NCBI GenBank assembly: GCA_001871015.1
Contig: MNUO01000034.1
Span: 1-25,874 of the forward strand
DNA from: Candidatus Desantisbacteria bacterium CG1_02_38_46
GTDB lineage: Bacteria > Desantisbacteria > UBA1551 > UBA1559
DNA length: 25,874 bases
Reading direction: 5' to 3'
Numbering within the stretch: position 1 is the first letter of the stretch; every line of letters begins with the position of its first letter. The notes under the pieces were generated by a model that did not search any database, was not told where the DNA came from, and saw only the letters and a list, made by a program, of their open reading frames with translations. This document shows positions 1 through 24,483 of this stretch, one piece after another. Position numbers and translations under genes: made by a program.

Positions 1-213
1 CTTTATCCGGTTTTTGCTCTTGCTTATCCTGTGTTTCTATCATAATCATAAAATTAAAGCAAGGATTGAGGACGATGTAGCAATCTCCATTGCATCCTCG
101 ACATGGTCTGGATAGGACTAATGACGCTCTTACGTCCCCAATCCAAAAAATCTAAGAGAAAGGTGGTGAAATTTGTATAAATAGTTAGGACTACGAAAAA
201 TCTTTACCAGACA
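1..213. other. Non-coding left edge of the window
   Basis: No convincing gene is seen here. The only coding hint is a leftward open frame starting at an ATG complementary to 47-49 and running off the window edge; it has just 16 codons and no Shine-Dalgarno sequence, so it is not called. The stretch holds a folded segment (63-144). The AT-rich TATAAATA at 176-183 has no acceptable -35 box at the right distance. Confidence 0.4.
63..144. repeat. Long imperfect stem-loop, possible degenerate repeat or small RNA
   Basis: The outer arms GGATTGAGGACG (63-74) and CGTCCCCAATCC (133-144) pair except for one position. Inside are nested pairings: GAGGA with TCCTC, and GCAAT with ATTGC around a CTCC loop. 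This is direct sequence evidence for a roughly 80-nt foldback. Its nature is unknown: a decayed miniature element is the likeliest reading, a structured RNA or leader is possible. No flanking promoter or T-tract supports transcription. Confidence 0.35.
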
Positions 214-321
214 GCAGAGTAAACTCTGCACTTCCTCTTACAGAGCCTACTTCGGCAGAGTGCCACTTCCAGAGTGCCTACAGTCGGCTACTTTTGGCCA
301 CTACAATAATTGCCTAACTAT
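181..321 (-). repeat. Degenerate array of GTAG-headed REP-like palindromes with inverted flanks
   Basis: Read on the minus strand this segment is a chain of short palindromic units. One starts GTAGTGG at 304 and ends at 283 (22 nt). The next starts GTAGGCACTCTGG at 281 and runs to 254. A third starts GTAGGCTCTG near 252 and merges into a perfect hairpin at 214-229 (stem GCAGAG/CTCTGC, loop TAAA on the plus strand). The last hairpin is identical to the REP hairpins inside trpE and trpG. A 9-bp inverted repeat, ATAGTTAGG (181-189) and CCTAACTAT (313-321), brackets the array. It lies directly upstream of the dehydrogenase start. Confidence 0.7.
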
Positions 322-336
322 ATTATACAAGGAATA

Positions 337-1371
337 ATGAAAGCAGCAGTATATCTGGGAAAGGAATCAATCGAAATAAAAGAAGTGGAAAAACCAGAAG
401 TTAAAAGAGGAGAGGTTCTCGTTAAGGTTCATTCATGCGCAATCTGCGGAACTGATGTCCGCACATATTTTCATGGACATCATGCAATTAATCCGCCGCA
501 TATACTGGGCCATGAAGTTGCTGGGGAGATTGCCGAGATTGGTGAGGATGTTGAGGGATATAAGTCAGGAGAGCGCGTCCATATGGTAACAGAGGTGGGC
601 TGCGGAAAATGTAAATTTTGTATGGAGGGCAGACAGAACCTATGCCCGGATTTGAGAGCAATGGCATATTATTATCCAGGAGGATTTGCAGAATACATTC
701 TTATTCCACGCGAGGGAGTCATTCAGGGAAATCTTCTTCCTATTCCATATGGACTTTCGTTTGATGAGACAACTCTTGCCGAACCACTTTCCTGCTGTAT
801 CAATGCACAGGAATATCTAAATATTACTTCTGGAGAAACAGTGGTTGTTGTTGGAGCGGGACCAATTGGATGTATGCACACAGAACTGGCAAGATTGTCA
901 GGTGCGGCAAAGATAATTCTGGCAGATATCTCGGAAGAAAGATTAGAGCTGGGGAAAAAATTTGGCGCAAATGTTTTTGTCAATAGTACTAAGGAAGACT
1001 TAATCGAAAGAGTAAAGGATGAAACTGAAAATGCAGGAGCAGATGTGATTATTGTTGCCTGTCCTGCTCCTCAGGCACAGGAGCAAGCATTACAAATGAT
1101 TGCGACAAGAGGCAGAATTAGTTTTTTTGGAGGATTGCCGGGAGGAAAAACCATTGTCATTGAAAGCAACATTATTCATTATAAGGAAATTTCTATATTT
1201 GGAGCATTTGCATCTTCTGTTCGCCAATACAAACAGGCGCTTGAGCTTCTGGCAGGCAAAAAAATAAACGGTGATGACTTAATCACGCACAGGTTTCCAT
1301 TAGAGAAAATCAAGCAAGCGCTTGAAGTGGCAAGAAGTGGCAAGGGATTAAAGGTAATTATTAATCCGTAA
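337..1371 (+). CDS. Zinc-dependent MDR alcohol/polyol dehydrogenase
   Basis: Predicted cytosolic NAD(P)-dependent oxidoreductase of the medium-chain family, close in layout to sorbitol, L-threonine and other polyol dehydrogenases. In the 344-aa product the catalytic-zinc ligands are seen as Cys37 (in CGTD) and the GHE motif at 58-60. Four structural-zinc cysteines lie at 89, 92, 95 and 103. The nucleotide-binding loop GAGPIG is at 173-178, followed by an acidic ADIS strand end that favours NAD over NADP. The start at 337 is preferred because AAGGA precedes it at good spacing; an upstream TTG at 310 abuts the REP array and lacks a ribosome site. The next gene follows after 15 bp, so the two dehydrogenases are probably co-transcribed and act on one sugar-alcohol pathway. 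The exact substrate cannot be read from sequence. Confidence 0.9.
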   Translation: MKAAVYLGKESIEIKEVEKPEVKRGEVLVKVHSCAICGTDVRTYFHGHHAINPPHILGHEVAGEIAEIGEDVEGYKSGERVHMVTEVGCGKCKFCMEGRQNLCPDLRAMAYYYPGGFAEYILIPREGVIQGNLLPIPYGLSFDETTLAEPLSCCINAQEYLNITSGETVVVVGAGPIGCMHTELARLSGAAKIILADISEERLELGKKFGANVFVNSTKEDLIERVKDETENAGADVIIVACPAPQAQEQALQMIATRGRISFFGGLPGGKTIVIESNIIHYKEISIFGAFASSVRQYKQALELLAGKKINGDDLITHRFPLEKIKQALEVARSGKGLKVIINP

Positions 1372-2270: not shown

Positions 2271-3515
2271 ATGTACATAAAGAGAAATTTAGAAGAAATT
2301 ATAAATAAATATATTGAGACACCCGAAATTATTGCAATTGTTGGAGCAAGGCAGACAGGTAAAACCACTCTTTTGAAACACGTTCAAGAAAATATTAAAA
2401 ATTCCACATTTATAACTTTTGAGGATGTTAAAATCCGGACATTATTTGATAGAGACATAGATGCTTTCATTGAACTGCATATTAATCCCTACCAACATAT
2501 TTTTATTGATGAATTTCAATATGCTCGGAAGGGTGGCCAATCTTTAAAATTTATATACGATACCACGCACAATAAGAAGATTTTTATTTCTGGCTCTTCG
2601 GTTTTGGAGCTGACTGTAAACGCGGTTAAATATTTAGCAGGCAGAATATTTTCTTTTAATCTGTATCCATTTGGTTTTCAGGAATACCTGAGTTATAAAA
2701 ACCCTCATCTCTACGAATATTACAAAAAAATAGAACAGGATAAAAAATTAGATAATGTATTAATTGAAAAATTTTATTCTTTATTGGAAGATTTCATCAT
2801 TTATGGAGGTTATCCTCGCGTAGTTATTGCAAAAGGCACTGAAGAAAAAAAGGAAGTTTTAAAAAATATTTTGAATGTGTATCTTTTGAAGGATGTAAAA
2901 GATTCTTTCAGGTTGGCAGATGATTATAAAATTTTTAATCTTATTAAGTCGTTATCCCTCCAAACCGGGAATGTTATTTCTTATAATGAACTCTCAAGCA
3001 CAACACAGCAAAGTTTTTCTTTGCTCAAAAGAAGCCTGAGTCTCATCGAAAAAACTTATATAATAGCACTCCTGAGGCCATTTTTTACAAATAAAAGAAT
3101 AGAACTCGTCAAAAATCCAAAAGTTTATTTTTATGATACTGGATTGAGGAATGCAGTGATTGACGATTTTAAAAAGATGGATGCGAGGCAAGACAGTGGA
3201 TCCCTGTATGAAAATTTTATTTTTACTGAATTTACTAAGAAAAATTTTAATGTAAAATATTGGAGAACCAAATCAAAAGCAGAAGTCGATTTTATAATCA
3301 ACGACAAGATACCCGTGGAAGTAAAGTCTAATTTAAACAGATTGACAATTGGAAAACCTCTTTTAAGTTTTATTGAAAAATATAAACCAGAAGAAGCTTT
3401 CATTTTTAACAGAAATATTGTAGAAAAAATTAAAGTAAATAATACAAAAGTTCGTTTCTTGTATCATTTTTCTAAATATGAACAAAAAACCATTGAAGGT
3501 TATCAAAATTACTGA
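2271..3515 (+). CDS. AAA_14/DUF4143 ATPase
   Basis: Cytosolic P-loop ATPase of 414 aa. The N-terminal AAA domain has Walker A GARQTGKTT (about 26-34), Walker B HIFIDEF with the catalytic acidic pair (about 76-82) and a sensor-like strand FISGSS. The C-terminal DUF4143 part ends with a PD-(D/E)XK-like pattern: a Glu in the YENF/FTEF helix, Asp in AEVDFII, and VEVK. This domain pair is very common in archaea and uncultured bacteria. Its role is not settled; toxin-antitoxin, nuclease or mobile-element functions have been suggested. It has its own promoter and stands between a metabolic pair and the gat genes. A second, distantly related member lies at 18643-19947. An insertion is plausible, but no terminal repeats are visible. 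Confidence 0.85.
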   Translation: MYIKRNLEEIINKYIETPEIIAIVGARQTGKTTLLKHVQENIKNSTFITFEDVKIRTLFDRDIDAFIELHINPYQHIFIDEFQYARKGGQSLKFIYDTTHNKKIFISGSSVLELTVNAVKYLAGRIFSFNLYPFGFQEYLSYKNPHLYEYYKKIEQDKKLDNVLIEKFYSLLEDFIIYGGYPRVVIAKGTEEKKEVLKNILNVYLLKDVKDSFRLADDYKIFNLIKSLSLQTGNVISYNELSSTTQQSFSLLKRSLSLIEKTYIIALLRPFFTNKRIELVKNPKVYFYDTGLRNAVIDDFKKMDARQDSGSLYENFIFTEFTKKNFNVKYWRTKSKAEVDFIINDKIPVEVKSNLNRLTIGKPLLSFIEKYKPEEAFIFNRNIVEKIKVNNTKVRFLYHFSKYEQKTIEGYQNY

Positions 3516-16394: not shown

Positions 16395-17903
16395 ATGTAT
16401 TACCCATCTTTATCCGAATTTAGAAAATTGGCAAAGCGCGGCAATCTTATTCCTGTGTACAGGGAAATACTTGCAGATTTAGAGACGCCTGTTTCAGCGT
16501 TCCTGAAGATTGCGAGGGATACACCTTATGCGTACTTACTGGAAAGCGTTGAAGGACAGGAAAAGATTGGTCGTTATTCCTTCCTTAGTGCCAATCCCTC
16601 ACTGATATTTAAAAGTAAGGGTGAGAGCGTCTATCTTATAATTGATGGTCAGGAAACCGAAATCAAAATGAAGCAGGACCCCCTGGATAATCTGAAAGAA
16701 GTTATGCACCGCTATAAACCTGTAAAAGTTAAAGGACTGCCGCGATTTTTCGGCGGAATGGTAGGATATATTTCTTATGACATGGTCCGTTTTTTTGAAA
16801 AACTTCCTGATAAAAACCCCGATGACCTGAATTTGCCCGACAGTATTTTTTTACTTACCGATACTCTTTTGATTTTTGACCACATAGAACACTCCATAAA
16901 AATAGTATCCAATGTTGTCATCAAGGACAATCCGGATTACGCCTATCAGACTGCCTGCTTGAAGATTGAATTCCTGGTGAAGAGGTTGAAAGAACCGTTA
17001 AAGGCAAATAGTCGAGCAAGCTCGACCACTACAAGTAGTGGCAGAGTTTACTCTGCAAATAGTAGCAAAGAAAAATTTAAATCGAATCTTACAAAAAATG
17101 AATTTGAAAGAATTGTCAAAAAGGCAAAGGAATATATAAAGAAAGGAGATATAATCCAGACTGTTCTCTCGCAGAGAATAGAGACAAAAATTGATGCAAA
17201 TCCATTTGATGTATACAGGGCATTGCGCATTGTGAATCCCTCTCCATATATGTATTATCTGAAAATGGGGAATTTGAAAGTCATTGGTTCTTCACCAGAA
17301 GTATTCCTGAGGGTGGAGGATGGAATTGCCACTGTTCGTCCCATTGCTGGCACAAGACCTCGAGGAATTGACGAAAAAGAAGACAGGAAATTGGAAACTC
17401 AATTACTTTCCGATGAAAAAGAGAGAGCAGAGCATGTTATGCTGGTGGATTTAGGACGCAATGACCTTGGCAGGGTTTGTGAATATGGAAGTGTCCAATT
17501 AAACGAAAGTATGAGCATTGAGAAATATTCTCATGTGATGCACATTGTTTCAGAGATTACCGGGAAATTGCATAAGGGTAAAGATGGGTTTGACTGTGTC
17601 CGTGCCTGCTTTCCAGCCGGCACTGTAAGCGGTGCACCAAAAATTCGTGCAATGGAGGTTATAGACGAACTGGAACCACTGAAGCGCGGACTCTATGCAG
17701 GCGCAGTCGGGTATTTCTCTTTTTCTGGCAATGTGGATACCTGTATTACAATCCGCACTATACTGATGAACAAAGCATCCGCATATATTCAAGCAGGCGC
17801 GGGTATTGTGGCGGATTCCAGACCTGAGAATGAATATCGTGAGACGCTCAACAAAGCCCGGGCATTGTTAAAAGCAGTTGAAATGGCACAGGCGGGACTA
17901 TGA
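16395..17903 (+). CDS. trpE: Anthranilate synthase component I
   Basis: Chorismate-using subunit of anthranilate synthase, the first step of tryptophan synthesis, working with TrpG. The 502-aa product has the N-terminal regulatory domain with the LLES motif that forms part of the tryptophan feedback site, and the chorismate-binding domain with PIAGTRPRG, MLVDLGRNDLGRV, GTVSGAPKIRAMEVIDE and GAGIVADSRPE. The start at 16395 is preferred: a frame extension from TTG 16344 would only translate the upstream repeat. Residues about 206-221 are encoded by a REP pair and fall in the linker between the two domains. The stop overlaps the trpG start by ATGA, indicating coupling. No attenuator leader is visible. 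Confidence 0.95.
   Translation: MYYPSLSEFRKLAKRGNLIPVYREILADLETPVSAFLKIARDTPYAYLLESVEGQEKIGRYSFLSANPSLIFKSKGESVYLIIDGQETEIKMKQDPLDNLKEVMHRYKPVKVKGLPRFFGGMVGYISYDMVRFFEKLPDKNPDDLNLPDSIFLLTDTLLIFDHIEHSIKIVSNVVIKDNPDYAYQTACLKIEFLVKRLKEPLKANSRASSTTTSSGRVYSANSSKEKFKSNLTKNEFERIVKKAKEYIKKGDIIQTVLSQRIETKIDANPFDVYRALRIVNPSPYMYYLKMGNLKVIGSSPEVFLRVEDGIATVRPIAGTRPRGIDEKEDRKLETQLLSDEKERAEHVMLVDLGRNDLGRVCEYGSVQLNESMSIEKYSHVMHIVSEITGKLHKGKDGFDCVRACFPAGTVSGAPKIRAMEVIDELEPLKRGLYAGAVGYFSFSGNVDTCITIRTILMNKASAYIQAGAGIVADSRPENEYRETLNKARALLKAVEMAQAGL
17011..17056. repeat. Head-to-head REP pair inserted in frame in trpE
   Basis: A minus-strand unit (17011-17032, stem GTCGAG/CTCGAC, loop CAAG on the plus strand) and a plus-strand unit (17035-17056, stem GCAGAG/CTCTGC, loop TTTA) meet through their heads, CCACTAC-AA-GTAGTGG. 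Each is 22 nt with a 2-nt spacer, so the pair plus flanking bases gives a multiple of three. The plus unit is read as SGRVYSA. Confidence 0.85.
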
Positions 17904-18544
17904 TTTTGATGATTGATAATTACGATTCATTTACTTATAATCTTGTTCAATATCTGGGAGAGCTGGGCAAAGATATCAGGGTTTACCGAAATGATAAAAT
18001 AACGATTGGCAAGATTCGCTCCCTTAAACCAACCCATATCGTTATTTCACCTGGTCCAGGAAGGCCGGAACAAGCAGGAATTTCAAACGATGTTATCAAA
18101 AATTTTGCCAGCAAAATTCCGATTCTCGGTGTTTGCTTCGGACATCAGTGTATAGGTTATGTTTGTGGCGGAAAAATTGTTCAGGCAAAACGTCTTATGC
18201 ATGGGAAAATCTCAATGATTTATCATGACAGGAAAACTATTTTTAAAGGTTTACCAAATCCATTTGAGGCAACAAGGTATCACTCGTTAGTTATTGAAAA
18301 GAAAACTGTTCCAAAATGCCTGGAGATTTCTGCCTGGACAAAAGACGGTGAAATTATGGGTGTCCGATACAAAGAAGTTTCAAGTTCCAGGTTTCAGGTT
18401 TCAAGTAAAAGTAGTGGTGCAATTCATCGCACTTGTAGTGGCAGAGTTTACTCTGCAATTCTTGAAGGCGTCCAATTCCACCCCGAATCCATTTTAACCA
18501 CCGAAGGCAAGCACCTTTTGGGCAATTTTCTCAAACAAAAATAG
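17900..18544 (+). CDS. trpG: Anthranilate synthase component II (glutamine amidotransferase)
   Basis: Class I glutaminase that feeds ammonia to TrpE. Motifs: DNYDSFTYNLVQYL at the N-terminus, ISPGPGRPEQAG oxyanion region, nucleophile Cys79 in GVCFGHQ, and the His194/Glu196 pair in GVQFHPESILTTEG. The 214-aa product exceeds the usual length of about 190. The excess equals residues about 160-186, where normal relatives go directly from a VRYKE-like strand to EGVQFHPES. That segment is encoded by four heptamer repeats plus two REP units. Since catalytic residues on both sides remain in frame, the enzyme is probably active with a surface loop. It is translationally coupled to trpE; trpD does not follow directly. 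Confidence 0.95.
   Translation: MILMIDNYDSFTYNLVQYLGELGKDIRVYRNDKITIGKIRSLKPTHIVISPGPGRPEQAGISNDVIKNFASKIPILGVCFGHQCIGYVCGGKIVQAKRLMHGKISMIYHDRKTIFKGLPNPFEATRYHSLVIEKKTVPKCLEISAWTKDGEIMGVRYKEVSSSRFQVSSKSSGAIHRTCSGRVYSAILEGVQFHPESILTTEGKHLLGNFLKQK
18377..18404 (+). repeat. Four tandem heptamers in trpG
   Basis: Consecutive GTTTCAA, GTTCCAG, GTTTCAG and GTTTCAA, 28 bp in total, immediately ahead of the REP pair. They encode the serine-rich start of the extra loop in TrpG. Confidence 0.75.
18411..18456 (+). repeat. Tandem REP pair inserted in frame in trpG
   Basis: Two 22-nt units in direct orientation, 18411-18432 and 18435-18456, separated by TT (period 24 bp). The first has head GTAGTGG and stem GTGCAAT/ATCGCAC with one mismatch. 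The second is identical to the plus-strand unit in trpE and is read in the same frame, SGRVYSA. Confidence 0.85.
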
Positions 18545-18586: not shown

Positions 18587-18616
18587 CAAAATTGTAAAAT
18601 ATACTTGACAATTTTG
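18587..18616. promoter_or_regulatory. Inverted repeat over the -35 region, possible operator
   Basis: CAAAATTGT (18587-18595) and ACAATTTTG (18608-18616) are perfect 9-bp inverted arms 12 bp apart, the right arm overlapping the -35 hexamer of the downstream ATPase. A direct repeat ATTGTAAAATATA (18591-18603, 18623-18635) also spans the promoter. Such an arrangement would suit autoregulation; this is inference. Confidence 0.4.
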
Positions 18617-18632
18617 AAAAATATTGTAAAAT
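18605..18632 (+). promoter_or_regulatory. Promoter placed for a nearly leaderless message
   Basis: TTGACA (18605-18610), 16-bp spacer, TAAAAT (18627-18632). The ATG of the ATPase begins only 10 bp after the -10 box and has no Shine-Dalgarno sequence, so the transcript would have a leader of a few bases or none. Confidence 0.6.
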
Positions 18633-18642
18633 ATATATTGTA

Positions 18643-19947
18643 ATGGTAAAAGAACTTTTTTATGAATTTTGGGAAAAAACACTACCTGAGGTTAGAACGC
18701 GAGAACTTGACATTGGGCGACTGGATACAGATTTAATTAATGACATAGTTGGAATAAGAAGATGCGGAAAAACCTATTTTATGTTTTTATTTATAAAACA
18801 TCTTCTTGATGACGAGAATGTCAATAAAAATCAGATTTTATATTTAAACTTTGAAAATAGAAAATTGCATCCATTAAAAGAAAGTTATTTTAATGACATT
18901 GTAGATTTTGTTTATGCAGAAAAATTATTGGACAGATTCAAAAAGATATACCTATTTTTAGACGAAGTCCAGAACATAAATGGCTGGGAAAAACAATTAA
19001 GGAGCATTTATGATGAATTTAAAGGGAAAGTAAAAATCGTTATAAGTGGCTCTAATGCCAGTCTTTTGAAAAAAGATTATGCCACTCTTCTTACGGGAAG
19101 GCATCTTACAATCAATCTTTATCCTCTCTCTTTTAAAGAATTTTTGAATTTCAACAATTTTTCAGTTAACAATAAAAAAATTTTTACTGAAAGAGAGAAA
19201 TCTTTAATACGGAAATATCTGACAGAATATATTAAATCTGGAGGTTTTCCAGAAGTAGTTTTGGCTGATGAATACAAGGAAGATATTTTGCAGCAGTATT
19301 TTGGGGACATAATAACACGCGATATAATATCCCGCGAAAGAATAAGAAAAGACGCTTTTTTAGTTGAAGAGATAGCGGCGTATTTGATAAATAATATTTC
19401 TAATCTTTTTAGTCTGAGAAAAATATCTAATTTCTTTGGGTCCAGTGGGAATAAAATTTCTGTTCCTACCTTGCAGAATTATTTAAGATTTTTTGAAAAT
19501 GCTTTTTTATTTATACCTATTCGAATTTTCTCCTATAAAATCAGGGAGCGATTACAGCACCCTCAGAAAATTTACTGTATAGATGCAGGATTAATCAGTG
19601 CCTTAAGTTCAAAATCTCCTCCTGATTGGGGCAGATTATATGAAAATACTGTTGCTGTTGAATTGAAAAGAAAGAAATGCGAAATATATTACTGGAAAGA
19701 CTATAGATATAATGAGGTAGATTTTGTAATAAAGAAAGGATTAAAAATATCCACGCTTATACAGGTATGTTACGATATGAATAAAGATAATTATGAAAGG
19801 GAGGCAAGTTCACTTATAAAATGTTCTAAGGAACTTAAATGCAAGGACCTTTTGATAATAACCGATGATGAAGAAAGAGAGTTTAAAGAGAGTGGTATTA
19901 CTATTAAATCAATTCCTCTCTATAAATTTTTACTTTTTGGTTATTAG
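18643..19947 (+). CDS. AAA/DUF4143 ATPase (second copy, distant)
   Basis: A 434-aa ATPase with the same two-domain plan as the gene at 2271 but little sequence identity. Walker A is GIRRCGKTY (about 37-45), Walker B YLFLDEVQ (about 103-110) and the sensor strand VISGSNASLL. The DUF4143 part has YPLSFKEFL, SGGFPEVV and ends YENTVAVEL, YNEVDFVIK, LIQVCYDM, a form of the nuclease-like E/D/QxC pattern lacking the terminal ExK lysine. Its role is unresolved in the family. It is the first gene of the AT-rich block that separates trpG from trpD, is followed by a RAYT-type end remnant, and is probably an independent insertion from the methyltransferase cassette behind it. Confidence 0.85.
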   Translation: MVKELFYEFWEKTLPEVRTRELDIGRLDTDLINDIVGIRRCGKTYFMFLFIKHLLDDENVNKNQILYLNFENRKLHPLKESYFNDIVDFVYAEKLLDRFKKIYLFLDEVQNINGWEKQLRSIYDEFKGKVKIVISGSNASLLKKDYATLLTGRHLTINLYPLSFKEFLNFNNFSVNNKKIFTEREKSLIRKYLTEYIKSGGFPEVVLADEYKEDILQQYFGDIITRDIISRERIRKDAFLVEEIAAYLINNISNLFSLRKISNFFGSSGNKISVPTLQNYLRFFENAFLFIPIRIFSYKIRERLQHPQKIYCIDAGLISALSSKSPPDWGRLYENTVAVELKRKKCEIYYWKDYRYNEVDFVIKKGLKISTLIQVCYDMNKDNYEREASSLIKCSKELKCKDLLIITDDEEREFKESGITIKSIPLYKFLLFGY

Positions 19948-20001: not shown

Positions 20002-21606
20002 ATGGCAGTGAAAAAATACAAAAAAGTAAAAGAAAATATTTTAATAAAACCAAAAGGGAAAAAAGACAGAGCTTGGTTTACCAGAGATTCTGCCACTGGT
20101 GAATTAGTAAAAACAAGACCATTTGTCAGACAGGCAGAGAAAATAGATTTAGAACTTTTTCCTAATAAAGAAATAGAAAAATTAAGACATTCTAATAGGA
20201 AGAACCACAATCAATATTTTACTCCCGAATTTGCAGTAGAAAAAGCCATTTCTCTTATCTCAGAAACAAAAATTGAAAATATAATTGATCCAGCAGTTGG
20301 TAATGGAGTATTTCTCAGGATAGCTTCTAAGAAATGGAAAAGTGCAAAATTATTCGGGATAGACATTGACAAAGAAATAGTGTCTATATTGAATAAATCT
20401 AACTTGCCCAGTTCTTTTATTTGCTCTGCAGATAGTCTCTTACACCAAGCATGGCAAATACCTGAAATTAAAAAAATTCTTTTGAATGGTGGGTTCGACC
20501 TTGTTGTTGGAAATCCTCCATTTAGCAGTTGGTTTAATCGTATAGGATCCCAGGAAATCCTGTCTAATTATGAATTGGCTAAGAATAATGGGAATTTGAA
20601 AAGAAGCCAAGCAATTGAAATACTCTTCCTTGAAATTTTTATAAAAATAGCGAAGGAGGGAGGTTTTATTGCGATCGTCCTTCCCGACGGAATACTTTCA
20701 AATCCACAGTATAGATATGTGCGTGAATTTATTCTAAGAAAAACAAAGGTACTGCAAATTATTAATCTCCCGAGAAATATTTTTGAAGATACATCTGCAA
20801 AGACAAGTATTCTAATTCTTCAAAGAATGAACATGTATAATCTTAAATATTATGTAGGAATATATGATCTCAATAAAAAAGGGGAATTAAATAACAAAAT
20901 AAAAGCTAAAGGAGAAAAATTATTAAATAGAATGGATTATAATTTTTATTATAATTTTAAAAAGTGTTCATTAAGAAAATTAGGTAATAACGGGCTTGTA
21001 GTTAGACCATTAGATAATTTTATAATTTATTGTAAAACCGGAAAAACTCTTTATGGAAAAGATAGGGTGTTTTCAGGCAAGGGACTGCATTTTCTTCATA
21101 CTACAAATATTGCAGATATTGGCATAAATTATGAAAAGGATAAAAAATTTATTCAACCGAATAGCAAAATGGACTTTAAAAATGCCCACACAAGAATTGG
21201 CGATATTTTAATCGCTCGAGTCGGGAACGGATGTGTAGGAAAATGTGGTATTATTTCTTCAAAAAAAGATATGGGAATAGTTTCCGATTGTATCTTTACG
21301 CTCAGAATAAATAAACTATCTCCTTATTTTGTAAGCATTTTTTTAAAAACAAAATTTGGAAAAGAATGGTTTAATGCCATAAAACATGGTTCAGCGGCGA
21401 CTAGTATTGCTAAAAATGAAATTTTATCAATTCCCATTCCCTTACTTCCCAAAAACACCCAAGGAGCGATTGAAAAACAATACAAAAAGATAATTACAAA
21501 TTATCATAGAAATGGTAATGACAAAGATTTAAAAATTTATCAGTGTTTTAAAAAATTGATAAAAAATGTAGAGGAGAAAATCACCAATGGGAAAAATATT
21601 CAATGA
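20002..21606 (+). CDS. N6-adenine DNA methyltransferase with C-terminal specificity-like region
   Basis: A 534-aa enzyme expected to transfer methyl from S-adenosylmethionine to adenine in a defined DNA site. Motif X-like QYFTPEFAV (71-79) precedes the SAM loop DPAVGNGVFL (96-105), the acidic motif II GIDID (119-123) and catalytic motif IV NPPF (171-174); helix IAIVLPDGILSN follows. This is the HsdM/Eco57I-type order. From about 330 the sequence resembles a type I target-recognition domain (HTTNIADIG, RIGDILIARVGNGCVGKCG, SSKKD, ENEILSIPIPLLP-like end). M and S functions thus appear fused with a single recognition half. AAGGAG precedes the start. The stop overlaps the next gene by 20 bp. No nuclease or helicase domain is visible in it. 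Confidence 0.85.
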   Translation: MAVKKYKKVKENILIKPKGKKDRAWFTRDSATGELVKTRPFVRQAEKIDLELFPNKEIEKLRHSNRKNHNQYFTPEFAVEKAISLISETKIENIIDPAVGNGVFLRIASKKWKSAKLFGIDIDKEIVSILNKSNLPSSFICSADSLLHQAWQIPEIKKILLNGGFDLVVGNPPFSSWFNRIGSQEILSNYELAKNNGNLKRSQAIEILFLEIFIKIAKEGGFIAIVLPDGILSNPQYRYVREFILRKTKVLQIINLPRNIFEDTSAKTSILILQRMNMYNLKYYVGIYDLNKKGELNNKIKAKGEKLLNRMDYNFYYNFKKCSLRKLGNNGLVVRPLDNFIIYCKTGKTLYGKDRVFSGKGLHFLHTTNIADIGINYEKDKKFIQPNSKMDFKNAHTRIGDILIARVGNGCVGKCGIISSKKDMGIVSDCIFTLRINKLSPYFVSIFLKTKFGKEWFNAIKHGSAATSIAKNEILSIPIPLLPKNTQGAIEKQYKKIITNYHRNGNDKDLKIYQCFKKLIKNVEEKITNGKNIQ

Positions 21607-22192
21607 AAAAATTTATAATTCAATTGCTATAGACAAACTGACAATTTTTGCGATTTTTCACCTATCAGCTCAACATGAAGAATGCGCTTTTGAGAGACTT
21701 GCAAAGGAATGTTTTACTCTTTTCCCCAAACGTTTTTGTTTAAGACGTTATAGCCAATGGCCAGATAGCAATCGTGTATATTTGTCTATGATACGATGTA
21801 GAAATAATGGATGGGTTGTAGGGAATGAAAAAAGTGGCTTTCAAATTACAGAATTTGGTATTAAGATTGCCAAAGATATTTCTGATCAATTAGATAATGT
21901 TAAAATTGAAATGATTAAAAATCATAAAACAATAAATAAACAGTCACGAGAGCGAGGTGAAACTATAATAAATTTTATAAAACAAAGCAAGGCATTTATA
22001 AATTTTAAGAGCGACAAAAATATTTTCACTATCACTGAAGGAGAATTTAGAGAGATGCTTGGAGCAACAAGAGAGACACCAGAAAGAGTATTAAAACAAA
22101 ACTTTGAATATTGTTTGAATGTTTGCAAGGAATATAAAGAAAGGGAATTGATAGATTTTTTGACAATATGTAGAAAACAAATGTTCCGCTAA
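21587..22192 (+). CDS. Unknown protein, probable winged-helix subunit of the methyltransferase/GHKL module
   Basis: A 201-aa basic protein that I do not recognise. The first 95 residues (IDKLTIFAIFHLSAQ, FERLAKECFTLFPKRF, NRVYLSMIRCRNNGWVVG, GFQITEFGIKIAK) look like helix-helix-helix plus a beta wing ending in an ITEFG turn, a common shape in winged-helix DNA-binding proteins. The second half is helical and lysine/glutamate rich, with TITEGEFREMLGATRETP possibly a second small helical domain. It begins inside the methyltransferase gene behind GAGGAG, so the two are translationally coupled. Its end lies 28 bp from the start of the GHKL ATPase. A DNA-binding, adaptor or nuclease-regulating role in the module is inference. 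Confidence 0.6.
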   Translation: MGKIFNEKIYNSIAIDKLTIFAIFHLSAQHEECAFERLAKECFTLFPKRFCLRRYSQWPDSNRVYLSMIRCRNNGWVVGNEKSGFQITEFGIKIAKDISDQLDNVKIEMIKNHKTINKQSRERGETIINFIKQSKAFINFKSDKNIFTITEGEFREMLGATRETPERVLKQNFEYCLNVCKEYKERELIDFLTICRKQMFR

Positions 22193-22220
22193 TAAATACA
22201 AAATGGGGGGGTATATAATT

Positions 22221-24119
22221 ATGAATAGTAGTATTTTTGGTGAAGCGAAAAAACTTCAAATAGAACCCAGAATTGTTAAACAAATGAGTCTTGCAACTAT
22301 TCGGACTTTTCCGGATGCTATTGTAGAATTGGTAACTAATTGCGATGATAGTTACAGGAGACTTGAGGAAAAAAATGTTGTTTGTTCAGGAGAAATAAAA
22401 GTTTTTATAAAAAGATTGAAGGGTGGAAGATGTGAAGAATTAAAAGCAATTGATTTTGCTGAAGGAATGGAAAAAAATCAACTTGAAGAAGCGCTTAAAT
22501 TTGGAGGTGAAACAAGTGGATTTGAAAAAGGTAAAAGTGTAAGAGGTTTATTTGGCAGAGGACTGAAAGAATCAATTTTGGCGTTGGGTAAAGGAATAAT
22601 TTATACTATAAAGGATAATAAAATATCTATTGCAGAATTATGGTGGGATGAAACTAGCAGCAGTGCAAAATATAAAATTATTAAAGAAAGTTATATTCCA
22701 AGCTTAGAAGAAAGAGATGAAGTTGGCATTAAAGAAAACGGGACTTGCGTAAAAATTTCTATTACTAATGAAAGGATTAAATGTCCTGAGTATAAGACAC
22801 TAAAACCTCAAATTTGTAATCATTTTGCCTTAAGAGAAATTAATTCATCTACTAAAAGGAAAGTTTATTTGTGTTTTGAGTCATCAAAAGATGGAAGCAG
22901 GATATCTTCACCTATTTCATTTGAAAAGCCAGCAGGAAAAGAAATCCTTAATATGCCTATCACATTACCTAATTATGGTGATGAGATTAAAGTGAAGATA
23001 CTTGAAAGCGATACTGAATTAGATAGTCCATACAACGACCCTTATTCAAAAGCAGGATTGTTAATAAAAAGTGGTGGTGCCATTCTTGATAAAACATTAT
23101 TTAAATTTTCATCTGAAAAGGCAGGAAGTTATTTTTTTGGTGAGGTTGTATGTGAAGGAATTTATGGAAGGATAAAAAGGGGTGATTACGGAATGATTGA
23201 TCCCAATAGATGTGGAATAGAATGGCAACATCAATATTGCAAAATTTTACAAAATGAGATAGAAAAGGTTTTGCAACCTTTCATTGAGAAGAAAAAAGAG
23301 GAATTGTTAAAAAGTAAGCCATCCATAAAAATGTCTGAACAAACGAAGAAAATGTTAAATAAAATATGTCAATTATTAAATAGATTCGCAAAGCTTGAAC
23401 TTGAAAAAGAATTACCCGATGGAACAGATCTGGAAAAAGATGATGAGGTCAGAGGCATTATGATAAAACCATCAAAAGCACATATTATTATTAATAAAGA
23501 AAGATGGTTTTCAGTATATGTTCCTTTTAAACAAGTAGGAATTATTCCAAAAGTGAAAGTAACTTCAAGTAATAACGAAAAGATATCAGTTTTAGATCCA
23601 GATATAAATAATTTTCGTCCTCACTCAAAACGACCTGAAATTCTAATAGGCAGATTCAGAGTGATAGGGCGAGAAGTTGGGTCAATTGGAACAATAAAGT
23701 GTATTTCAGAAGATGGTAGTAATGCAACGGCAGAGGTAGATGTTATTCCAGAAGAGAAAGAAGGAAAGAAAAAAAAGAAATTAGAGATACCTAAGGGTGG
23801 TTTCTTTTCTGAAATTACTCCAGATTTAGAAAGAGATCCTAATCAACGTGTTGCATATGAATCTGGTAAAATAAAAATTTTTGTTATGTTTCCTATGATA
23901 CAGCAATATCTTGACGAAAAATTAGAACCCAAAAGAGATGAAGGGAAAGTAATATTAGCAGAACTAATAGGTGAAGCTTTTTGTAAAGTAGTGGCAAGAG
24001 AGCGTGTTGATAGAGGTAATCCTCCAATAATAACATCTGAAATTGATGCATTTAATATAGCGATGAATGCGGTTCAGAAAGAGTATCTTCATCAAATTCA
24101 TAAAATTTTGGTGGAATAA
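22221..24119 (+). CDS. GHKL (MutL/MORC/Hsp90-like) ATPase
   Basis: A 632-aa protein with a Bergerat-fold ATPase at its N-terminus: N-box ELVTNCDDSY (Glu36, Asn40, Asp43), G1-box AIDFAEGM (Asp77) and G2-box GLFGRGLKESILALG (from 109). The order and the G2 form are closest to MutL/MORC-like ATPases, which clamp DNA through ATP-driven dimerisation. A basic-acidic middle region (EKKKEELLKSKP, KKMLNKICQLLNRFAKLELEKE) could be a coiled coil. A beta-rich domain at about 420-540 and a helical C-terminal domain (VMFPMIQQYLDEKLEPK, AELIGEAFCKVVARERVD) follow. I see no nuclease motif. The start at 22221 is preferred because a run of seven G bases serves as ribosome site; an ATG at 22203 would place that run in the coding sequence. 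Published work links similar ATPases with restriction-modification operons. Confidence 0.85.
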   Translation: MNSSIFGEAKKLQIEPRIVKQMSLATIRTFPDAIVELVTNCDDSYRRLEEKNVVCSGEIKVFIKRLKGGRCEELKAIDFAEGMEKNQLEEALKFGGETSGFEKGKSVRGLFGRGLKESILALGKGIIYTIKDNKISIAELWWDETSSSAKYKIIKESYIPSLEERDEVGIKENGTCVKISITNERIKCPEYKTLKPQICNHFALREINSSTKRKVYLCFESSKDGSRISSPISFEKPAGKEILNMPITLPNYGDEIKVKILESDTELDSPYNDPYSKAGLLIKSGGAILDKTLFKFSSEKAGSYFFGEVVCEGIYGRIKRGDYGMIDPNRCGIEWQHQYCKILQNEIEKVLQPFIEKKKEELLKSKPSIKMSEQTKKMLNKICQLLNRFAKLELEKELPDGTDLEKDDEVRGIMIKPSKAHIIINKERWFSVYVPFKQVGIIPKVKVTSSNNEKISVLDPDINNFRPHSKRPEILIGRFRVIGREVGSIGTIKCISEDGSNATAEVDVIPEEKEGKKKKKLEIPKGGFFSEITPDLERDPNQRVAYESGKIKIFVMFPMIQQYLDEKLEPKRDEGKVILAELIGEAFCKVVARERVDRGNPPIITSEIDAFNIAMNAVQKEYLHQIHKILVE

Positions 24120-24135
24120 AATTGAAATAGCAAAG

Positions 24136-24483
24136 ATGAAGAAAGTAAATCTCAAAGAAACTGACCCCCCACCTAAAATATGGAACTGGGTGTGGGATAC
24201 TTTGGGAGAAATTTCAGATGAGGTTGGTGTAGAGAAAAAGGGGAAATATCTACTCATATACGAGGGGTGGGGCGGAATTTGTGTTAGCGATATATATGAT
24301 TCAAAGAAATCCGATGAAGAAAATGAAGACGAGTCTTATAAATATGCTGAAGAACAATCTGATGATGTAATTGAAGAGTGGATTGAAGGATATAAAAAGA
24401 CTCATAACTTGATTGAATGCGGATATGAGCCCACAGGGCTCTACGGTGTCACATGGGCATTGTTTAAAAAAATAGAAAAATAA
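24136..24483 (+). CDS. Small acidic protein of unknown function
   Basis: A 115-aa product without recognised family. It opens with KETDPPPKIWNWVWDTLGEISDEVGV and continues with YLLIYEGWGGICVSD, a Glu/Asp-rich segment (SDEENEDESYKYAEEQSDD, about residues 58-76) and a final GYEPTGLYGVTWALFKKIEK. Net charge is strongly negative. The ATG at 24136 is chosen because it follows the ATPase stop by 16 bp; a longer frame from 24067 would overlap the ATPase with no ribosome site. It is probably the last gene of the module. A DNA-mimic inhibitor, an immunity or an accessory subunit are all conceivable; none is shown. Confidence 0.6.
   Translation: MKKVNLKETDPPPKIWNWVWDTLGEISDEVGVEKKGKYLLIYEGWGGICVSDIYDSKKSDEENEDESYKYAEEQSDDVIEEWIEGYKKTHNLIECGYEPTGLYGVTWALFKKIEK

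Follow-up and report, generated by a model that had tools for sequence, protein, structure and literature searches.

A conserved gene pair of a predicted winged-helix protein and a MORC-like GHKL ATPase in bacteria and archaea: a possible nuclease-free DNA-silencing module

The involvement of GHKL ATPases in prokaryotic conflict systems has been described from several angles (Iyer 2008, PMC2292703; HEF_HK, PMC8011034; VcSduA, PMC12137116). Prokaryotic MORC and the paraMORC1-5 GHKL families sit in restriction-modification operons (PMC2292703), and VcSduA, a paraMORC3 Shedu protein of a phage defence system, is a fusion of such an ATPase with a DUF4263 nuclease (PMC12137116). Equally, immune operons are regulated by the paired proteins CapK, of HTH-STAS-GHKL architecture, and CapS, of STAS-wHTH architecture (PMC13373217). 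As to eukaryotes, two published accounts associate MORC and SMCHD1 with DNA compaction or silencing (PMC12216690; PMC11879086), MORC2 being reported as a DNA-compacting ATPase in the former. GHKL ATPases in conflict systems are thus known; what appears to be new in the locus described here is the pairing of such an ATPase with a predicted winged-helix protein without a helicase or nuclease.

The low-G+C island between trpG and trpD

The window, the whole stretch of 25,874 nucleotides that was analysed, is part of a draft genome of Candidatus Desantisbacteria bacterium CG1_02_38_46, whose phylum is represented by two genomes in the comparison sample. An island at 18.6-24.5 kb with a G+C content of approximately 0.30 versus 0.40 splits the trp genes, sitting between trpG and trpD; in an empty-site check, trpD was found to sit elsewhere in the other genome of the same phylum. 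No tRNA and no Rfam family were found within the window. The four genes with overlaps or short gaps that a previous sequence-only reading had recognised in the island are all present (Table 1), and its statement that a recognisable nuclease or helicase is missing holds, with no such model matching in the island. That reading had not included an AAA_14/DUF4143 ATPase gene on the same strand, which ends 54 bp upstream of the methyltransferase gene and is the opening gene of what is putatively one operon; in the comparison of loci it has no conserved link to the downstream pair discussed below. The promoter-like site upstream of this gene scores 11/12, the best in the region, and the overlapping direct repeat could, judged by its position, be an operator.

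Two further features of the window lie outside the island. A second AAA_14/DUF4143 ATPase gene sits within its own G+C dip (0.29), apparently a further small acquired island with a gene of the same family. Furthermore, TrpG contains an odd serine-rich stretch of about 25 residues directly before the EGVQFHPESI motif, which resembles an in-frame inserted repeat.

Table 1. Positions of the features in the window, in the two core proteins (residues) and at related loci
Feature	Sequence	Positions	Strand	Remarks
Second AAA_14/DUF4143 ATPase gene	window	2271-3515		
TrpG	window	17900-18544		
Promoter-like site	window	18605-18632 (with repeat 18588-18635)	+	upstream of AAA_14 gene; direct repeat AAWATTGTAAAATATA
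AAA_14/DUF4143 ATPase gene	window	18643-19947	+	PADLOC candidate PDC-S01
Methyltransferase gene	window	20002-21606	+	534 aa
201-aa protein gene	window	21587-22192	+	20-bp overlap with methyltransferase gene
GHKL ATPase gene	window	22203-24119	+	638 aa; 10-bp gap to 201-aa protein gene
Acidic protein gene	window	24136-24483	+	115 aa; pI 4.5; about 16 bp after GHKL gene
Acidic protein, alternative reading	window	start at 24067	+	138 aa
Winged helix	201-aa protein	~7-108		AF2 model
C-terminal domain	201-aa protein	~121-200		five helices; AF2 model
GHKL+S5	GHKL protein	19-372		predicted model
Helical arm	GHKL protein	344-401		two long helices; predicted model
Beta-rich domain	GHKL protein	~420-515		predicted model
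C-terminal helical domain	GHKL protein	579-637		predicted model
MNT-HEPN-like gene pair	L017	532-1169		
Pair, type III methyltransferase, protein start	L021	2983-5885		protein start at contig end
Insert with the pair	L023	7277-9981		
RFKRLA-type protein	L013; L026; L029; L032; L037; L087; L093	7286-7573; 7080-7298; 7135-7362; 2182-2418; 7115-7330; 7101-7316; 7081-7296		
DYYEWLKDNFKSFF-motif protein	L018; L019; L020; L022; L027	9885-10097; 3083-3304; 3120-3380; 9914-10156; 4182-4361		

A pair inherited and transferred as a unit

The conserved unit consists of two genes, those of the 201-aa protein and the GHKL ATPase. A GHKL profile was scanned against 84,980 species genomes, the best 80 relatives were taken and homologues of the 201-aa protein at their loci were found by iterated HMM. 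Among the matches listed, a 201-aa homologue lies directly beside the GHKL gene at 43 loci, 40 of them non-redundant, with the 201-aa gene upstream in 38/40 and downstream in two (L036, L038); the two genes overlap or are up to about 40 bp apart. The carriers in this list bear at least 19 phylum labels including the archaeal Bathyarchaeota, Nanobdellota and Nitrososphaerota and are nearly all metagenome-assembled or candidate-division genomes, which would explain why the pair has not been met by screens.

Starting from the GHKL protein, a search of 290 genomes identified six other carriers, the best approximately 53-54% identical, four of which possess the 201-aa homologue directly upstream; the methyltransferase and acidic protein genes occur at none of these six loci. 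The reverse test, with the 201-aa protein as starting point and consequently free of the bias of the GHKL search, found this protein in six of the 290 genomes with the GHKL gene adjacent in every case, the sixth and most divergent being detected by HMM only (2.9e-13). Other genomes preserve the gene order of the core pair as well as its length and sequence, so that chance does not account for these genes. The mirror-tree comparison of the two proteins gives r = 0.884, a value reached by 0/2000 permutations, and the tree of the carriers departs from taxonomy, with 18 changes among 19 phylum labels and the Chloroflexota scattered. Adjacency, mirrored trees and a non-taxonomic tree taken together, the pair has been inherited and transferred as a unit.

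The sequence-only reading had regarded all four genes as one module and had staked this view on their co-occurrence in other genomes. The neighbourhood survey bears out a very strong co-occurrence of the 201-aa and GHKL genes; the full set of four does not recur. The closest relative of the GHKL protein is not accompanied by a methyltransferase or an acidic protein, the nearest relatives of the methyltransferase have other partners, and the acidic protein, which gives nothing significant in Pfam, has no relatives in the 289 other genomes and is not a conserved part. The four-gene unit, failing the very co-occurrence that had been named as decisive, was rejected.

A second GHKL group of about 42 loci (within L040-L096), distant relatives with proteins of mostly about 630 aa, has neither a 201-aa partner nor a common neighbour and served as control only. 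It stands alone in Marinobacter, Thauera, Arthrobacter, Acetobacterium and others, and the size of its proteins points to a family that is Hsp90-like or consists of solo GHKL proteins.

Companions and mobility of the pair

The methyltransferase of the window (METHYLTRANSFERASE) belongs to the gamma class of N6-adenine enzymes, is complete, includes a target-recognition part of its own and shows the motifs DPAVGNG and NPPF. The fusion of modification and specificity parts recognised previously is evident, as N6_Mtase matches residues 62-299 (8.8e-26, Pfam) and type I specificity models match the C-terminal residues 328-522 (PADLOC). The full length matches MTase_II PDLC03311 of PADLOC; scores fall short of the curated cut-offs for hsdM (54 of 243 bits), PglX (33 of 500) and the MADS2 model NF047738 (118.6, cut-off 720). 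The nearest relatives of the enzyme, at identities of 60% and 47%, adjoin a common gene of 178-220 aa, 57% identical between the two, which from its VNIKT segment probably encodes a restriction endonuclease, so that these relatives look like members of ordinary type II restriction-modification pairs. No homologue of this candidate cognate endonuclease is present in the window, which thereby does not show a type II restriction-modification pair. The enzyme is probably an orphaned type II modification gene and an optional companion of the pair, the simplest history being one in which a neighbouring endonuclease gene disappeared or gave way to the pair.

A methyltransferase adjoins the pair in 5/40 loci, and those at L021 (type III Mod), L023, L027 and L038 are of other kinds than that of the window. 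By parsimony, the five adjacent cases need five changes on the tree, and methyltransferase adjacency therefore arose repeatedly. Within 8 kb, a DNA methyltransferase was found at 9/40 paired loci versus 0/42 loci of the distantly related GHKL control group without the 201-aa gene (hypergeometric probability of about 0.001), a contrast that is partly circular because the methyltransferase HMM seeds came from the paired set. A PADLOC scan of neighbours, independent of these seeds, agrees in direction: of 110 near neighbours of the pair, at least six are matched by type II methyltransferase models, none of which ranks with the 25 families most often met in 105 control neighbours. From these counts, the association with methyltransferases is real but loose, as expected of defence islands.

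These data bear on the third choice among the readings, according to which all four genes form one relative of restriction-modification systems in which methylation marks self and an ATPase complex blocks unmarked DNA, BREX-like without a nuclease. The tight operon in the window with its 20-bp overlap, the repeated gain of adjacency and the enrichment of methyltransferases nearby would be in line with such a system, which we nevertheless judge distinctly improbable, given that 35/40 loci are without an adjacent methyltransferase, that the acidic protein is unique, that the adjacent enzymes belong to differing classes (gamma N6, type III Mod, N4/N6 with HNH) and that the pair breaks methyltransferase genes in L023 and L027.

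L023 has the pair within a methyltransferase-HNH gene, as an insert of about 2.7 kb containing two genes only, and the halves of the host gene stay in frame (KAYRL, then LKDDGR). The insert is flanked by the 12-bp direct repeat ATATAGATTGTT, which resembles a target-site duplication, as though the two genes had moved together. Close to both ends there is also a direct repeat of 16 bp, TTTATTCAACAAAATC. L027 has the pair flanked by fragments of methyltransferase genes cut near motif I, and several loci are embedded in, or follow, operons of housekeeping function (atp, pyruvate dehydrogenase, ribonucleotide reductase); relatives of the genome G282 gave no match to ribonucleotide reductase, so that the empty site is not informative there. 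Flanking repeats at the other loci are not convincing, the 18-bp repeat of L045 being a palindromic dispersed repeat, and the L023 insert encodes no recombinase. As convincing flanking repeats occur at L023 alone and no recombinase is encoded, no claim of a transposon is made. Equally, the pair was not found on phages, plasmids or viral contigs, where plasmid matches were weak only (E 0.02 or worse).

A selfish unit that promotes its own mobility or persistence through some mechanism not involving a known recombinase might be read from the in-frame two-gene insert with its flanking repeat and from insertions into operons and genes of unrelated genomes. We give this reading scarcely any credence, as flanking repeats are seen at one locus only, conserved ends are lacking, no catalytic recombinase motif is recognised and passive mobilisation in trans accounts for the observations.

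At the majority of loci, the immediate neighbours include no defence gene; several loci adjoin MNT-HEPN, PIN and Fic genes, and methyltransferases, toxin-antitoxin and Fic genes are regarded as separate or occasional partners of the pair. Individual neighbourhoods provide further observations. PIN-domain toxin-like genes are located upstream of the 201-aa gene in L034, L035, L044 and L050, the latter two also having an AbrB-like gene, and L017 has an MNT-HEPN-like gene pair next to the module. Behind the pair, L021 encodes an entire type III methyltransferase and, at the contig end, the beginning of a protein that matches a class II pAgo (PDLC02381, 1e-30). Directly upstream of the 201-aa gene, seven loci contain a small conserved protein (RFKRLA..RTN..L..LGN..NR..Y.YS..DI.KIF) for which Pfam has no name. 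Another small protein with a motif like DYYEWLKDNFKSFF is encoded shortly downstream of the GHKL gene in five loci and is a possible third subunit in that branch.

Predicted folds, a possible mechanism and comparison with known systems

The 201-aa protein, which gives nothing significant in Pfam, was modelled with AF2 from 39 sequences at a mean pLDDT of 91. The predicted winged helix matches the wHTH proteins AF1382, SSV1 F-93, MntR and DtxR as well as MarR proteins at Z 9-11, in agreement with the winged-helix-like character suggested previously; matches of the structure search cover this part (residues 7-108) only, and the invariant residues E36, F50, P59, D60 and G79 of the family all lie within it. 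No nuclease motif was recognised in the protein. A topoisomerase VI/Spo11-like A+B pair had been considered, because topoisomerase VI-A carries a winged helix, and was rejected: the 201-aa protein lacks a Toprim-sized domain and its match, in the search with the full-length model, is confined to the wHTH.

The GHKL protein matches HATPase_c_3 (7.3e-9, Pfam), and its model (mean pLDDT 86.8) contains a GHKL+S5 part with Z of 21.1 to MORC3, 20.7 to SMCHD1, 20.4 to Hsp90 and 19 to topoisomerase VI-B. With MORC2 also matched, MORC2, MORC3 and SMCHD1 range from Z 20.5 to 21.1, their scores and that of Hsp90 being ties within approximately one Z unit. The ATP motifs are intact (E42, N46, DxAxG 84-88, GxxGxG 115-120, T181), and the protein models as a MORC/SMCHD1/Hsp90-type GHKL+S5 ATPase. 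The previous designation as MORC-like is borne out by the fold, with GHKL followed by S5 and residues 19-372 aligning to MORC3 and MORC2. The MORC motif GhXhhpXXRhl with the S5 arginine is absent; the window reads GLLIKSGGAIL, A replacing R, and the majority sequence of the family is GILIKxxxAIL. Long versions of the protein have extra sequence in the region of the beta-rich domain. The Hsp90 score, nearly that of MORC3, would also suit a chaperone of the Hsp90 kind whose client or partner binds DNA and which has no link to defence, a reading that is very unlikely for a pair with a constant winged-helix partner that is patchy, transferred, rare (6/290 genomes) and close to conflict genes.

Our tentatively favoured reading, held with somewhat less than even confidence, is that of a two-gene module whose ATPase acts as an ATP-gated clamp on DNA, is loaded by the winged-helix protein and keeps foreign DNA silent or out of the cell. 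The 201-aa protein would bind DNA via its winged helix and recruit the GHKL ATPase, presumably through its helical domain; on ATP binding, the N-terminal heads might pair up in the manner of MORC, SMCHD1, MutL and Hsp90, and DNA would be trapped or compacted by the dimer once it has closed. The DNA so marked, which might be foreign, mobile or a locus under repression, would not be transcribed or replicated, no cutting being needed, and an adjacent methyltransferase, where present, could mark self DNA. Complex formation, clamping and silencing are what we infer from the predicted folds and the conserved pairing, and a defence role is suggested by gene context. Counting against this reading are the lack of an immediately neighbouring defence gene at most loci, the position of several loci in or behind housekeeping operons, the failure to find the pair on phages, plasmids or viral contigs and the missing S5 arginine of the MORC motif. 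A bolder version, which we consider unlikely, would make the pair the prokaryotic counterpart of MORC/SMCHD1 silencing, a winged-helix-loaded GHKL clamp that does not cut and moves as a two-gene cassette between bacteria and archaea.

The main rival, to which we assign a rather low though appreciable probability, is a regulatory switch in which a winged-helix repressor and a GHKL ATP-driven sensor or kinase control adjacent immune or other genes. CapK-CapS is a GHKL and wHTH pair with exactly such a role (PMC13373217), the wHTH resembles MarR, DtxR and MntR repressors, and the gene immediately after the pair encodes a type III methyltransferase in L021 and various other products at other loci. 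Against this, the 40 loci have no conserved co-directional downstream gene, Pfam and NCBIfam show a STAS domain, as in CapK and CapS, in neither core protein, and the GHKL protein is of MORC/Hsp90 size with S5 and extra domains and not kinase-like. Upstream palindromes, present at 5/39 loci versus 6% in shuffled controls, are barely above expectation and give no clear autoregulatory signal.

If the clamp reading is true, bacteria and archaea own a nuclease-free DNA-silencing module built on a MORC/SMCHD1-type ATPase engine. As the mechanism of MORC and SMCHD1 in animals and plants is still debated, the two-gene version might serve as a small testable model of how a clamp chooses and compacts DNA. 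Equally, the pair would point to a source of defence genes that the catalogues lack because nearly all carriers are uncultured. The two core proteins match no family of PADLOC-DB 2.0.0 at E 1, four further family members none at E 0.1, and Pfam, NCBIfam and PHROG have no family name for either beyond HATPase_c_3; no named system in these collections matches the set, as had been stated before. A published account of the pair was not found in the literature searched, in which subscription journals are thinly covered.

Compared with described systems, the pair shares with prokaryotic MORC and paraMORC (PMC2292703) the GHKL+S5 architecture, HATPase_c_3, a patchy lateral distribution and methyltransferases near some loci. 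These families differ in having an SF2 helicase/nuclease partner, a neighbour found neither in the island of the window nor recurrently across the 40 loci, whereas the pair has a constant winged-helix partner and lacks the MORC arginine; they carry RE-fold, TIR or HxH extensions in place of the beta-rich and C-terminal helical domains predicted here, the comparison with paraMORC1, 2 and 5 (C-terminal extensions, ExxxH/HxH motifs), to one of which the GHKL protein may yet belong, being one with their published description. VcSduA/paraMORC3 Shedu (PMC12137116) has a GHKL ATPase within phage defence in common, defence being a possible role by context in our case, and unlike VcSduA the GHKL protein gives no Pfam match to the RE-fold DUF4263 at E 1. 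BREX, MADS and similar nuclease-free systems equally combine a methyltransferase (that of the window being weakly MADS2-like) with ATPases and no evident nuclease; their other subunits are absent here. The CapK-CapS regulators (PMC13373217) likewise pair a GHKL with a wHTH protein, but the present pair has no fixed downstream immune operon. Eukaryotic MORC2, MORC3 and SMCHD1 provide the closest solved folds with GHKL+S5 and a helical arm in common; at approximately 14% identity, the GHKL protein carries neither their CW zinc finger nor an SMC hinge, and unlike in these proteins, the DNA-binding subunit of the pair would be a separate one.
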